Below, in pieces: positions 5,006-35,038 of a DNA stretch of 35,038 nucleotides. This DNA is from Chloroflexota bacterium. GTDB taxonomy: Bacteria; Chloroflexota; Anaerolineae; UBA4142; SHND01. The position numbers and the translations under genes are program-made. The stretch lies in the NCBI GenBank assembly GCA_029778615.1, contig JAKOPZ010000224.1, positions 1 to 35,038 of the forward strand, given 5' to 3'. Positions within the stretch are counted from its first letter, which is position 1, and each line of letters opens with the position of its first letter. The notes under the pieces are model-generated. The model was not told the DNA's origin and did not search any database. It worked only from the letters and a program-made list of their open reading frames with translations.

Positions 5006-5068
5006 GTAGGACAAATTTGCAATTTGTCCTCTGCAACTCGCGCGGAACAAATTACAAGTTTGTTCTAC
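5006..5068. repeat. Pair of GTAG-headed palindromes in inverted orientation (REP-like)
   Basis: GTAG at 5006-5009 heads a perfect hairpin (AGGACAAATT / AATTTGTCCT, 5008-5030, 3-base loop). An opposite copy, headed by CTAC at 5065-5068, contains GAACAAA / TTTGTTC (5045-5065). The outer ends (CGTAG...CTACG) also pair, so the whole is a two-hairpin unit like a REP doublet. It lies between the DUF1444 stop and the crotonase start. Confidence 0.75.
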
Positions 5069-9775: not shown

Positions 9776-10681
9776 CTAATCCAATTCCTCCAGACGAAAC
9801 CAGCGCCGCATCGCGAGCACTTGACCCGCCACAATCGCCAGCGTGACAACATACACCAACGCTGTAGTCGCCGACGCATAACCGTAACGAAACAAACCGA
9901 ACGCTTCGTCAAAAATATAGTGCGGCAAAAAATACGTGGTGTAGTACGGACCGTTTTCAGTCGTCAACAAACCCGTCACAAAGACGCCTTGAAATGTGAG
10001 CGCAATATCGCGGAACGACAAGAGCAGCAGCGTCGGCACCAACAGCGGCAGAACAATATGACGAAAACGCTGCCAGCGATTCGCGCCGTCCACCGCCGCG
10101 TTTTCCAACATCTCGTGCGAAATCATTTGCAGCGCGGCGAGCATCAAAATAAATCCCTCGCCCAATTGAAACAACCACATGACGACCACCGACGCGCGCG
10201 CGGTGAACGGAATCGTCAGCCACGGTACGCCTTGAATCCCAAACGCTTGCAGCGCGAGATTCACCACGCCAAAACCCGGATTCAAAATCAAAAGCCATAC
10301 GAGGGCGTACGCGACTTCGGGAATAATCGTCGGCACGTACACACTCGCCCGCGCAAACCCAAACGCGCGCCCGCTCCGATTGAGCAAGAGCGCGAGCACT
10401 AATGCGCCGGTCACGCGCAGCGGCACGGCAATCAAAATGAACCACGCGGAATTGTACAGCGCGCGCTGAAACAATTGGTCCACCAACCAATGTCCAAAAT
10501 TGGCAAAGTTGTTCCAACGCGGCGCGGTGAACAAATCATAGTCGGTGAAACCGAGCAGGAACGTTGCCGCCATCGGCAGCAGAATGAGGACAAACACTCC
10601 CAAGAGGAACGGAAGCAAAAGCAAAACAAGTTGTGTGCGATACGAGGGATGGAACAGCCGCAAAGGAAACGAACGCCTCAT
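9776..10681 (-). CDS. Sugar ABC transporter permease (MalF/CUT1-type)
   Basis: Inner-membrane permease of 301 residues, partner of the next gene. The first helix (TQLVLLLLPFLLGVFVLILL) is followed by a short periplasmic stretch (LGFTDYDLFTAPRWNNFANF) and five more helices. The EAA loop is ENAAVDGANRWQRFRHIVLP. The ATG at 10681 overlaps the upstream stop (ATGA) and gives the expected N-terminus (MRRSFPLRLFHPSYR). The frame stays open 100 codons further upstream, but that stretch is the shadow of the membrane-protein gene at 10678-11862. Confidence 0.93.
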   Translation of the reverse strand: MRRSFPLRLFHPSYRTQLVLLLLPFLLGVFVLILLPMAATFLLGFTDYDLFTAPRWNNFANFGHWLVDQLFQRALYNSAWFILIAVPLRVTGALVLALLLNRSGRAFGFARASVYVPTIIPEVAYALVWLLILNPGFGVVNLALQAFGIQGVPWLTIPFTARASVVVMWLFQLGEGFILMLAALQMISHEMLENAAVDGANRWQRFRHIVLPLLVPTLLLLSFRDIALTFQGVFVTGLLTTENGPYYTTYFLPHYIFDEAFGLFRYGYASATTALVYVVTLAIVAGQVLAMRRWFRLEELD

Positions 10682-11862
10682 TTGAGACGCGCTCCCGCGA
10701 AATTTTGTTGTACGCATCGCCGCGCCGAACGGCTCCACTCCCATAGCCACACGCGCGTCAACCTCAACTCGACGATGAACAACGCCACCGCGACGACGAG
10801 CAATAGCGGCAGGTTCCAAAACATTCCAGTCGCGAGCAGCGCGCCCAAAAACAAACCATGAATGACGAGCCGAATCAACAGCAGCCAATGGTCGGCAGGT
10901 TCGCGCGGCACGCGTGCCTGCGCGAACGCCCACCACGTAACGCCCACAAATAACGCGAGCGTCAGCACAAACACAACCCACACCTCATTACGATAGACTG
11001 AAGCGTCATCCGGCACAAACGGCAGCGCCGCCGTATTTTCCAATGCCACAAACGGCACGAGCGTCGCAATCAGCGCGAGAAATGCGAGAATGGGGACGAC
11101 CCATTGTAGGGAACGAACGCCGTTTCGTTCCGTCCCATCCCGTTTTCGTTCCGTCCCATCCCGTTTTCGTTCCGTCCCATCGCGTTTTCGTTCCGTCCCA
11201 TCGCGTTTTCGTTCCGTCCCATCCCGTTTTCGTTCCGTCCCATCCCGTTTTCGTTCCGTCCCATCGCGTTTTCGTTCCGTCTCGTGACGCGCGCGCACCC
11301 ACCGCGTAAAAAACGAAAACCAAAACGCGACAAAGAGCCACGCGAAAAAATTGCCCCACGGCACGCCGAACCAGCCCTGGTCCGCGCGAATCGTCCACGT
11401 CCACAATCCCAACCGAATTGCAATCGCATCAATCGCCAAATCCAAAAGAATCGCCCACACCGCATCTGCCATTGGCGCAACAACGACAAATGACGAATGA
11501 CGAATGACGAAAGCCACATTTCTATTTGTCCTTGGTCCCTCGTCTTTCGTCGGGTTGATGGACGCATCACTCACGCCCAGCGCGTCGGTGATATTCATTG
11601 CGCCCGCGATAATCAGCGCCCACGTCAACGCAATCGCAATCGGCACATCGCCGAGCAAAATCCAATTTTCGTTATAGCGATACGTGCCAAACAAAAAAAT
11701 ATCGCCTTGCTCCAACAGCAAGCCGAATAGAAACGCGGTAATCAATTCAACAAAACGCGCGCGAGAATGTTTCCACGCGCGAAGCGCAGTGACAACAAAA
11801 GTGATCATTACACCGAGCTGTAGAAACGCGTACCAAAAGTCTGGCGTTGTCCCAATCTCCAA
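10678..11862 (-). CDS. CruF/DUF422-like membrane protein with repeat insertions
   Basis: An integral membrane protein of 394 residues with about eight helices. It resembles the carotenoid biosynthesis (CruF/bisanhydrobacterioruberin hydratase, DUF422) family: FLFGLLLEQGDIFLFGTYRYN, then PIAIALTWALIIAGA, LLDLAIDAIAIRLGLWTW and GVPWGNFFAWLFVAFWFSFF. Two foreign-looking stretches interrupt it. One is a heptamer palindrome (11485-11551) encoding DEGPRTNRNVAFVIRHSSFV. The other is seven copies of ERKRDGT from a 21-bp tandem repeat (11127-11284) in a predicted cytoplasmic loop. Both keep the frame. The start is uncertain: a TTG at 11862 lies in a GGAG-rich heptamer array that could supply ribosome sites. 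No other carotenoid gene is near; the stop overlaps the permease start, so it is co-translated with the sugar transporter. Confidence 0.65.
   Translation of the reverse strand: MEIGTTPDFWYAFLQLGVMITFVVTALRAWKHSRARFVELITAFLFGLLLEQGDIFLFGTYRYNENWILLGDVPIAIALTWALIIAGAMNITDALGVSDASINPTKDEGPRTNRNVAFVIRHSSFVVVAPMADAVWAILLDLAIDAIAIRLGLWTWTIRADQGWFGVPWGNFFAWLFVAFWFSFFTRWVRARHETERKRDGTERKRDGTERKRDGTERKRDGTERKRDGTERKRDGTERKRDGTERNGVRSLQWVVPILAFLALIATLVPFVALENTAALPFVPDDASVYRNEVWVVFVLTLALFVGVTWWAFAQARVPREPADHWLLLIRLVIHGLFLGALLATGMFWNLPLLLVVAVALFIVELRLTRVWLWEWSRSARRCVQQNFAGARLK
11106..11131 (+). repeat. GTAG-headed palindrome inside CruF-like gene
   Basis: GTAG (11106-11109) is followed by GGAACGAA (11110-11117) and its inverted copy TTCGTTCC (11124-11131) with a 6-base loop. 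It abuts the 21-bp tandem array, whose unit starts with the same GTTCC sequence, suggesting the array expanded from this element. Confidence 0.6.
11127..11284 (-). repeat. 21-bp tandem repeat encoding (ERKRDGT)7
   Basis: Seven full 21-bp units plus a partial eighth. Units differ only at one synonymous site (CGG or CGC for Arg), in the order C C G G C C G on the plus strand. This suggests an 84-bp (four-unit) secondary duplication. Each unit is itself three heptamers long. The product is a highly charged heptapeptide repeat in a loop between membrane helices. Confidence 0.92.
11485..11551. repeat. Heptamer-unit palindrome (GACRAAT type) inside CruF-like gene
   Basis: Left arm: GACAAAT, GACGAAT twice, GACGAAA (11485-11512). 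After an 11-base spacer, the right arm read in reverse complement is GACGAAA, GACGAGG, GACCAAG, GACAAAT (11524-11551). The phase of seven is strict on both sides. It is translated in frame within the membrane protein. Confidence 0.85.
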
Positions 11863-23162: not shown

Positions 23163-24697
23163 TCGCAATCCAACACGCGATATGTACAGTCACGCACCCG
23201 ATACAACGTCCATCCTTCAAACGTATCGAGCGGATGCAAAAAATTTGTTTCCGTCAAACCGCGCACCAATTGGTCAGGCAAACGTCCGCGCCATTGCGAG
23301 TCAATGTTGTTGGTGTCGGCATACAAATACGTTGGCACATCACTTGGCAGTGTCGCGGGGTCCATGTTCCATAAATTCTCGACGCGAATTTTTGAATACG
23401 TTTTTAGCGCGCCATCAATGCTCATAGTGTACACCAAAGCATTCGGCAGCAGTTGCGTTTCGAGCCAGCGCACATGTGCCAGTTCGCGCGCCTTGCTGTC
23501 CAACACCGGCGCCAGCACACGCGGCTGCCACACCAACATCACAAGCAGCGCGACACCAATCCATCCCAAAAGTAGTAACGACTTGAGTCGTTCCCTCGCG
23601 CGCCATTTTTCCCAAACCCATCCTCCGCCAATTCCCGTCACCACCGCAATCGGCGCAAACAATCCCAAACTAAAGCGAAAATTTTCGTATGGAATGCCCG
23701 CGAGAAAAAAATACATTCCCAAAATCCATCCCAACAATAAAATCGTTTTTGGAAATAGCTCTAGTCGCCGTAGGACGACTTGGCGATGTTGTTGCGGCGA
23801 ATTCATTCGCCATACTCCCACCACAAACAACGGCGTCAAAATCCCAAACAAATACGCGGGATGCGCAAACACTTGCCCATAAAAAATCGCGACAGGCAGC
23901 GCATAGTCGAAATGTCCGTCCGCATTGTCAAAAGAGCGCGCGAAAAAATTTAGAGCGCTCCATCCTTCCAACCAACTCTGTCCCGCGAGCGGCGCGTTCG
24001 TCGTCGTTCGAATCAGCAGCTGCGGCAGCAAGACGATGGCGATGATGCCGCACGCGAGCAGTCCGCGCGCGCCATGTTTCACGCGAACATTTTCTTGGCG
24101 CGCCATGAGCAGCAGCGTCAAAATCCACACCGCCGCGAAAATCAAATTTTGCCAGCGCGTCCACACCGCCATTCCTACCGCGAACGAAGCAATCGCGAGC
24201 GTCCACACATTTCGCGTGCGCGCGTAACGGAGCAGCAACCACGCGCCGAGCGCTGCCCACATCAACGCGGGCGCGTCCGCCATGATGACGACGGACGATT
24301 GCGCGAGTTGTCCGTTGACCGCGCAGAGCAAACCTGCGACCCAGCCCGCGACATGTTTGTATGCGTGCGGTGCGGCTTCCCGCGCCAACGCAAACGCGAA
24401 CGGCGCAACCAACGCGCCGCACAGCATTGTCGCAATTTGCGCGGTGGCAATGTTCGCGCCGCCGACAAGAAACGCAGCGTTCAACAACGCGGGATAACCG
24501 AGGGGCCACCAAAACGCGGGCGGCGTTTGCCAATGTGTCCACGCCTGAAACCCTTCGCGCGCGTATGCGAAATAGGCATACGCGTCCTGCCCGTACAAAC
24601 CATCGAACGCGTAGAGCTGCGCGAGCGCGAGGCGGTCCACCAACGCAGCAATGAACAAAAAAAACATCGCCGCACGTGTGGATTCAACGAGGCGCAT
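23159..24697 (-). CDS. PMT/ArnT-like GT-C membrane glycosyltransferase
   Basis: A polytopic protein of 512 residues with about 10 helices, in the dolichyl-phosphate mannosyltransferase/ArnT superfamily. The first extracytoplasmic loop carries GLYGQDAYAYFAYAREG, where the acidic catalytic residue is expected. MADAPALMWAALGAWLLLRYAR and AVWTRWQNLIFA are typical later helices, and a soluble C-terminal domain follows residue ~390. Family members use polyprenyl-phosphate sugars outside the membrane. A REP-like element (23762-23811) is translated in frame as RMNSPQQHRQVVLRRL, between two helices. The ATG overlaps the upstream gene by 14 bases. The acceptor is unknown. Confidence 0.85.
   Translation of the reverse strand: MRLVESTRAAMFFLFIAALVDRLALAQLYAFDGLYGQDAYAYFAYAREGFQAWTHWQTPPAFWWPLGYPALLNAAFLVGGANIATAQIATMLCGALVAPFAFALAREAAPHAYKHVAGWVAGLLCAVNGQLAQSSVVIMADAPALMWAALGAWLLLRYARTRNVWTLAIASFAVGMAVWTRWQNLIFAAVWILTLLLMARQENVRVKHGARGLLACGIIAIVLLPQLLIRTTTNAPLAGQSWLEGWSALNFFARSFDNADGHFDYALPVAIFYGQVFAHPAYLFGILTPLFVVGVWRMNSPQQHRQVVLRRLELFPKTILLLGWILGMYFFLAGIPYENFRFSLGLFAPIAVVTGIGGGWVWEKWRARERLKSLLLLGWIGVALLVMLVWQPRVLAPVLDSKARELAHVRWLETQLLPNALVYTMSIDGALKTYSKIRVENLWNMDPATLPSDVPTYLYADTNNIDSQWRGRLPDQLVRGLTETNFLHPLDTFEGWTLYRVRDCTYRVLDCE
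23762..23811 (+). repeat. REP-like element within the GT-C gene
   Basis: GTAG at 23770-23773 lies in a short AGTCG...CGACT stem (23763-23780), and a second hairpin GGCGAATTCATTCGCC occupies 23796-23811. The latter matches the GACGAATTCATTCGTC of the RAYT-flanking array except for one base pair exchanged on both arms (A-T to G-C). This is a compensatory change expected of a conserved palindrome. Confidence 0.6.
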
Positions 24698-34166: not shown

Positions 34167-34178
34167 AAAATTTTCACC

Positions 34179-34279
34179 GTAGTAACGATTTCAATCGTTC
34201 ATATGTGCGCGGGTGGGACGATTGAAATCGTCACTACGAGTTATCAAACGCGCAGCGTAGTAACGATTTTAATCGTTCA
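34179..34279. repeat. Three GTAG-headed palindromes on the downstream side of the RAYT gene
   Basis: Plus-oriented copies at 34179-34199 and 34257-34277 (AACGATT / AATCGTT stems) flank a minus-oriented copy at 34217-34237 (GACGATT / AATCGTC, with CTAC at 34234). All carry the GTAG head, and alternating orientation resembles BIME arrays. Confidence 0.85.
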
Positions 34280-34288
34280 TCACCACAA

Positions 34289-34885
34289 TCAATCATCCCA
34301 TCCTTTGCCAAAATCGCCCGGGGGATGTGTTTTCCAGGTCTCGTTCAACCAATCGCGTCCCTGTGTTTCGCGATAATTTTCCAAGCTACACCACACCCAT
34401 TCGTACGGGTCTTGGACGTAACCGTGCTTGACAGGATTCATATGGATATAGTTCAAAGCACGGTAATAATGCGACTCGTCGCGAATCAAGCGGTCACGAA
34501 ATTTGTACCAGACGCGTCGTTTATGTGTCAATCCATCTTGCAGATTCCACTCGCGCGCGAGTGAGCCATGAATTTGTTTCAAGGCTGCGGATAGAAAATC
34601 GAGATGCTGCACGCTCACCAGCAGGTGATAATGATTCGGAAGAATGACCCACGCGTTCATATCAATATCGAATGTTCGCAATTCATCATAGAGACGGGAT
34701 TCGATTTCACTGCGGCGCGCCGGGTTTGCCATGATAGGTTTGTGTTCATAGTTCACTGCCGTAATGAAATAATTGCCTGCATGACGAAAAGGGTGCGGCG
34801 GCGCATGCAGCGGGTAGCCGCGCTCGCGACGTTGTTGAATGACGGCGGCGCGTTCTTCAGGCGTCATTTGGCGGTATTGGTACAT
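34289..34885 (-). CDS. REP-associated tyrosine transposase (RAYT, IS200-like Y1)
   Basis: A 198-residue HUH endonuclease of the Y1 transposase superfamily. The HUH pair is H85-x-H87 in PNHYHLLVSV. The catalytic tyrosine is likely Y146 in RALNYIHMNPVKHGYV. The segment HAGNYFITAVNYEHKPIM is the typical N-terminal strand pair. RAYT proteins recognise and cleave GTAG-headed REP palindromes, and such palindromes lie on both sides here (34179-34279 and 34898-35038). It is a single-copy domesticated-type gene with no IS ends and starts with ATG at 34885, without a clear ribosome site. Confidence 0.92.
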   Translation of the reverse strand: MYQYRQMTPEERAAVIQQRRERGYPLHAPPHPFRHAGNYFITAVNYEHKPIMANPARRSEIESRLYDELRTFDIDMNAWVILPNHYHLLVSVQHLDFLSAALKQIHGSLAREWNLQDGLTHKRRVWYKFRDRLIRDESHYYRALNYIHMNPVKHGYVQDPYEWVWCSLENYRETQGRDWLNETWKTHPPGDFGKGWDD

Positions 34886-34897
34886 ACACGCGAATTG

Positions 34898-35038
34898 CGT
34901 AGTGACGAATTCATTCGTCCAAAGAACGATTGAAATCGTTACTACGAGTTATGCTTGACGTAGTGACGAATTCATTCGTCCAAAGAACGATTGAAAATGT
35001 TACTACGGGTTATGCTGGGCGTAGTGACGAATTCATTC
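34898..35038. repeat. 61-bp tandem array of paired GTAG palindromes upstream of RAYT
   Basis: Unit starts at 34898, 34959 and 35020 give an exact 61-bp period; the third is cut by the window. Each unit has one plus-oriented hairpin (GACGAATTCATTCGTC, headed by GTAG) and one minus-oriented hairpin (AACGATT / AATCGTT, with CTAC). In the second unit the latter stem is damaged (AAATGTT). This is the layout of a REP-doublet (BIME) array. Confidence 0.9.

Follow-up and report, generated by a model that had tools for sequence, protein, structure and literature searches.

Near the right end of contig C347, a gene for a REP-associated tyrosine transposase (RAYT) lies among short palindromes headed by GTAG. 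This raises the question of whether the gene and the palindromes belong to one RAYT-REP system, as in gammaproteobacteria. The window is the whole of this contig (35038 bases), and the genome from which it comes (G000, hereafter the own genome) is a draft of 6.0 Mb in 372 contigs.

The transposase gene and its palindromes

ORF calling placed the gene at 34289-34885 on the minus strand, where it encodes 198 amino acids. The protein scored 95.8 bits against the NCBI REP-transposase profile NF047646.1, above the curated cut-off of 80, and it matched the solved TnpAREP structure PDB 4er8 (E=1.1e-8) with the HUH, Tyr and Asn residues aligned. In an alignment of 14 orthologues, the HUH motif is H85-Y86-H87, the catalytic tyrosine is Y146, and N150 and the pair W126-Y127 can also be assigned; H85-Y-H87, Y146 and N150 are invariant. 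The motifs NHYH, W[YH] and YIHxNP (YIHMNP in the window, YIHYNP in most orthologues) and a proline-rich N-terminus are present. The closest named relative, from a Chloroflexi MAG, is 83% identical, which supports the assignment to Chloroflexota. A Pfam search of the protein, the IS200 Y1 model included, gave no match at 1e-3. The features of the locus are as follows.

34179..34199, plus strand: REP a, GTAGT-AACGATT-TC-AATCGTT (sequence)
34217..34237, minus strand: REP b, GTAGT-GACGATT-TC-AATCGTC, head-to-head with REP a (sequence)
34257..34277, plus strand: REP c, GTAGT-AACGATT-TT-AATCGTT, single, adjoining the 3′ end of the RAYT gene (sequence)
34289..34885, minus strand: RAYT, REP-associated tyrosine transposase, 198 aa (ORF, NF047646.1, PDB 4er8, 14-orthologue alignment)
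34898..35038, plus strand: head-to-head REP pairs repeated in tandem with a 61-bp period, 2.3 copies within the contig (tandem-repeat analysis)
34899..34919, plus strand: REP d, GTAGT-GACGAAT-TC-ATTCGTC (sequence)
34925..34945, minus strand: REP e, GTAGT-AACGATT-TC-AATCGTT, head-to-head with REP d (sequence)
34960..34980, plus strand: REP f, GTAGT-GACGAAT-TC-ATTCGTC (sequence)
34986..35006, minus strand: REP g, degenerate, GTAGT-AACATTT-TC-AATCGTT, two stem mismatches (sequence)
35021..35038, plus strand: REP h, GTAGTGACGAATTCATTC..., truncated by the contig end (sequence)

A first-pass annotation had described the gene amid at least seven GTAG palindromes of alternating orientation, with a 61-bp tandem array on one side, and this description held. 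Six of the palindromes are perfect, one is degenerate and one is truncated by the contig end, with a GTAGT head, a 7-bp stem and a 2-nt loop. Their orientation alternates on both sides of the gene, and the copies of the array match at 93%. The same annotation had assigned the stem AACGATT to one side and GACGAAT to the other. This was incorrect; AACGATT occurs on both sides (34179, 34257, 34945). Stems as markers of the two sides of the gene were therefore rejected, as GACGAAT and AACGATT are partners in one head-to-head pair. Elsewhere in the window, at 23572, a lone GTAGT-AACGACT-TG-AGTCGTT hairpin lies within a coding ORF and is probably a relic of the GTAGT REP kind.

Copies in the own genome and in relatives

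The palindromes are not confined to this locus. The pattern GTAGTRACGAWTNNAWTCGT had 113 exact matches in the 6.0 Mb genome and the reversed pattern had none, so the palindromes are non-random; a looser stem pattern raised the number of copies to 127. We read REP placement in 41 regions (0.46 Mb, the window and 40 others), which had been picked because they contain REPs. Only 19 of their 81 REPs lay inside long ORFs, a crude proxy for genes, while these ORFs covered 90% of the bases. The REPs are thus strongly biased to intergenic sequence. The main stems in the 41 regions were GACGAAT (27), AACGAAT (21), AACGATT (20) and GACGATT (9). The repeats show the features of REPs, namely a palindrome of 20-40 bp, an unpaired GTAG at one end, high copy number and mostly intergenic position, and the gene shows the feature of a RAYT, being flanked by GTAG REPs that recur genome-wide, mainly between genes.

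A search at ≥45% identity found a single RAYT of the GTAGT type in the own genome, and no second close one was found when looked for there. Four further RAYT-like loci were seen, on contigs C6 (L010), C55 (L012), C164 (L011/L013) and C328 (L014), each with a GTAG palindrome type of its own; on C164, the coding sequence is divided between two frames. The REP beside the RAYT on C6, GTAGGGAACGAACGCCGTTTCGTTCC, also occurs in the window at 11107-11281, inside the long ORF 10678-11862 (minus strand). It is followed there by a 21-bp tandem array, which is in frame and encodes a seven-residue repeat. A further palindrome family, GTAG-GACAAATT-TGN with stem variants, was seen at 5006 and 22053 of the window and at L187, L204 and L205, and no RAYT was found beside it at these places. 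The first 156 bases of the contig (1-156), at its left end, hold a perfect tandem repeat of 42 bp within an ORF, and this repeat encodes a coiled-coil-like segment that recurs.

An orthologue of the RAYT (at least 45% identity) was present in 15 of 149 genomes. The exact stems occurred 113 and 268 times in two congeners with an orthologue, the own genome being the first, and 2, 0, 5 and 2 times in four congeners without one. From a single exact-stem search of relatives, the repeat had looked species-specific. This idea was dropped, as the hairpins that flank orthologues differ in stem but share the tag and the tip. For the general hairpin, we built a covariance model from 26 hairpins beside orthologues; its counts level off near 55 per genome in a wide search and served as thresholds only. 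By this model, at least 20 hairpins were found in 14 of the 15 genomes with an orthologue compared with 11 of the 134 without one (Fisher p=4e-12). Same-family genomes are not independent in this comparison, and kinship was addressed only by within-genus and within-family contrasts; the contrast usually persists inside families.

Equal abundance in relatives without a RAYT, which the first-pass annotation had named as evidence to the contrary, was thus not the general pattern, whether by exact stems or by the model, although there are exceptions. G119 (100% complete), G031 and G026 have from 40 to at least 142 hairpins of the GTAGT kind and no orthologous RAYT (L155-L184), and G026 yielded no RAYT at all; some other genomes also combine such hairpins with the lack of an orthologue. 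Conversely, G018 has the orthologue, and GTAGT-kind hairpins are absent from it.

A scan of named genomes gave 80 loci encoding RAYT relatives, mainly in Chloroflexota and Cyanobacteria. One or two MAGs each carried the labels Acidobacteriota (Terriglobia, Blastocatellia), KSB1, Planctomycetota, Calditrichaceae, Verrucomicrobia and Poribacteria, although a few of these phylum labels could reflect misbinned contigs. At least two GTAG hairpins lay nearby at 67 of the 80 loci, compared with 4 in a reversed control. When 99 RAYTs were placed in a tree, those of the GTAGT type (82) formed one clade (SH-aLRT 97, by a quick method), with the window protein beside that of G001, and no GTAGT hairpins were found outside this clade. 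Copy number and relatives therefore support the suggestion that a RAYT-REP system operates here as in gammaproteobacteria, with the exceptions given above.

Constant and variable parts of the hairpin

The hairpins at 84 distinct loci were searched for by demanding GTAG and a palindrome only. Among the 405 found, the fifth base of the head was T in 394, the closing pair was T·A in 399 and the loop was TC or TT in 373. Compensatory changes were observed in six of the seven stem pairs, and 98.4% of the cells were paired. As the fifth base, closing pair and loop are nearly constant while the stem pairs covary, the hairpin keeps its tag and tip, and its stem changes as a duplex. What the enzyme recognises is probably the hairpin tip together with the five-letter tag, and not the letters of the stem. 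If the stem is read as a duplex only, one enzyme could serve all four main stems of the own genome. The earlier proposal that one enzyme handles several REP stems is well supported: stem changes are compensatory, and no second close RAYT was found in the own genome.

The tag is changed in three cyanobacterial members that keep the same stem kind and tip: GTTGT in Phormidium (L103, eight copies), and GTAAT and GTTAT in two Calothrix. These tag-variant loci are L103, L097 and L104. In the proteins of the three lineages, we found no clear candidate for contact with the head beyond a change of Y127 to C in L103.

Inverted neighbours usually have unlike stems. All 15 head-to-head pairs in the regions read from the own genome were heterodimers, and their spacers were mostly dissimilar. 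Across loci, we counted each dimer type once per locus and made 5000 draws for the expectation. For head-to-head neighbours, 8 of the 73 types were homodimers where 35.6 were expected; for tail-to-tail neighbours, the count was 5 of 42 with 20.7 expected. Neither value was reached in any of the 5000 draws. Among tandem neighbours, 14 of 28 had the same stem, and 14.0 were expected. The bias affects both inverted arrangements and spares the tandem one, which suggests that perfect inverted repeats as such are avoided and that no single type of unit is responsible. A probable reason for the rarity of identical stems in inverted neighbours is that a long perfect inverted repeat masks its component hairpins or is eliminated by nucleases. 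Folded as single strands, the pairs of the window already prefer the long imperfect hairpin; for 34899-34945 it has -11.3 kcal/mol, compared with about -4 for one hairpin. Perfect inverted repeats could also be under-represented for reasons of sequencing or assembly, but homodimers do occur at some loci, including those of Planktothrix. The heterodimer rule was reported in 2013 and was said to have no obvious explanation (PMC3733652).

We tentatively propose, with somewhat less than half of our confidence behind it, a general rule for the subclass. Across several phyla, its enzymes would read GTAGT and T-TY-A and not the stem letters, and the stems would drift under pressure for unlike inverted neighbours. 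In some Cyanobacteria, the tag has changed (GTTG, GTAA, GTTA) with the tip kept, which would have re-set the cleavage site.

Mobility, alternatives and known systems

Three sites with head-to-head pairs, chosen irrespective of outcome, were compared with congeners. At C262:15217, a REP pair lies between two genes in G000 and is absent from the same junction in G001 and G003. At C176:12134, the pair of G000 is absent in G001, and the homology of G005 begins after the pair. At C184:9228, both G000 and G001 have pairs, with different stems, and in G003, G004 and G005 the pair is absent or the homology ends at its edge. The flanks at these sites are 70-90% identical, so that exact insertion borders are unreadable. 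The contrasts are those of presence and absence and are compatible with gain or loss; a direction can be suggested by parsimony. At the RAYT locus itself, the homology of G003 to the window ends at 34167, at the REP array. The radical-SAM gene that neighbours the RAYT gene in the window has a counterpart in G003 with 93% amino-acid identity. It adjoins a second gene there, which reads like one for a radical-SAM-like protein, and in G001 the RAYT adjoins an orthologue of this second gene (78% identity). At an orthologous site in two congeners (L204:6229 and L251:1608), the REP pairs have different stems, which suggests stem replacement or independent insertion.

The locus is very probably a REPtron, that is, a single-copy gene for a Y1-type HUH single-stranded DNA transposase together with its substrate hairpins, which the enzyme spreads, or spread in the past, as non-autonomous elements across the genome. 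We infer the catalysis, the direction of movement and the role of each part by analogy. As in TnpAREP of E. coli and Marinomonas, the enzyme would bind a single-stranded REP hairpin, reading the tag and the tip (the closing T·A and the TY loop) and the stem only as a duplex. The 5′ tag GTAGT would guide the choice of a nearby cleavage dinucleotide, and attack by Y146 would leave a 5′-phosphotyrosine. An inverted REP pair might then be cut out, or copied, and transferred to a different single-stranded site, in most cases an intergenic one.

It is also possible, though unlikely, that the REPs are host elements, such as terminators, mRNA 3′-end hairpins or elements of DNA architecture, and that the RAYT is a domesticated housekeeping nuclease. 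The strongly intergenic position of the REPs, the persistence of orphan REP populations without an orthologous RAYT and the single RAYT of the GTAGT type per genome, which is usual for domesticated RAYTs (PMC6006769), would all fit such a role. However, copies are far fewer in the congeners that lack the orthologue, and REP pairs are variably present at orthologous sites. Host function and mobile REPs are compatible, and both can hold.

Far less probable is that the RAYT lies in a REP cluster by chance and that the REPs spread without it through recombination, slippage or gene conversion. Tandem arrays with periods of 61, 28, 50 and 88 bp do suggest local slippage or unequal exchange, and the stems differ at one orthologous site, but chance would hardly place hairpins of one kind next to RAYT genes across phyla and so much more often than in the control, or restrict the association, also seen at the genome level, to one RAYT clade. 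An autonomous IS200/IS605 insertion sequence ending in these hairpins is the least probable of these alternatives, and we give it hardly any weight. Hairpins on either side of a gene for a Y1 HUH protein would be expected of it, whereas the protein matched the REP-transposase model above cut-off and no Pfam model, that of the IS200 Y1 included, and the own genome has one copy of the gene and more than 110 hairpins. This candidate was rejected, as neither a Y1 Pfam domain nor several gene copies were found.

By motifs and length, the RAYT fits the TnpAY1 subclass 2.8 described in 2018 (PMC6006769), whose members have about 199 aa, NHYH, W[YH], YIHxNP, a proline-rich N-terminus and flanking GT[AG]G REPs. 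In our tree, the window protein shares a clade with cyanobacterial relatives, which are not the published subclass 2.8 references. The published sample consisted of eight proteins, all cyanobacterial, with relatives in other phyla noted in nr (PMC6006769). Compared with that sample, we found a large Anaerolineae branch and scattered members labelled Acidobacteriota, KSB1, Planctomycetota and others. The window protein reads YIHMNP instead of the YIHYNP of the subclass.

Di Nocera et al. (2013; PMC3733652) described REPtrons that share the GTAG head, the short stem, the TY loop, head-to-head dimers, heterodimers and repeat-specific RAYTs; with the 24 consensuses of that study, the comparison is one of described features. 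GTAG repeats have been known in Chloroflexi (T. roseum) since then (PMC3733652). To that work we add the tandem control and a cross-phylum count of heterodimers. Pseudomonas REPINs (PMC3116915) resemble our system in that inverted REPs recur as pairs, which cluster near the RAYT and form tandem arrays. They differ in belonging to another RAYT subclass, and here the spacers between paired REPs are mostly dissimilar. TnpAREP of E. coli, Stenotrophomonas and Marinomonas (PMC8266576, PDB 4er8) has the HUH, Tyr, Asn and Arg positions, the GTAG guide and palindrome recognition in common with our system, and the loop is important in the Marinomonas enzyme (PMC8266576). These enzymes are of other subclasses with WE or WQ, whereas here we observed WY, a constant T as the fifth head base and no stem bulge.

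The system is real and of a kind already known. What is new is a sharp rule for the substrate of a subclass that has received little study, the breadth of that subclass's distribution, a heterodimer count with a control, and congeners that either have or lack the elements. For most RAYT subclasses, the mode of REP spread and the part of the hairpin that is recognised are questions on which this branch can bear. It provides many stem variants on a constant tag and tip, natural variants of the tag, and congeners in which the same sites can be compared between genomes that have the enzyme and genomes that lack it. Thus, recognition and mobility are directly testable with oligonucleotides and close strains.
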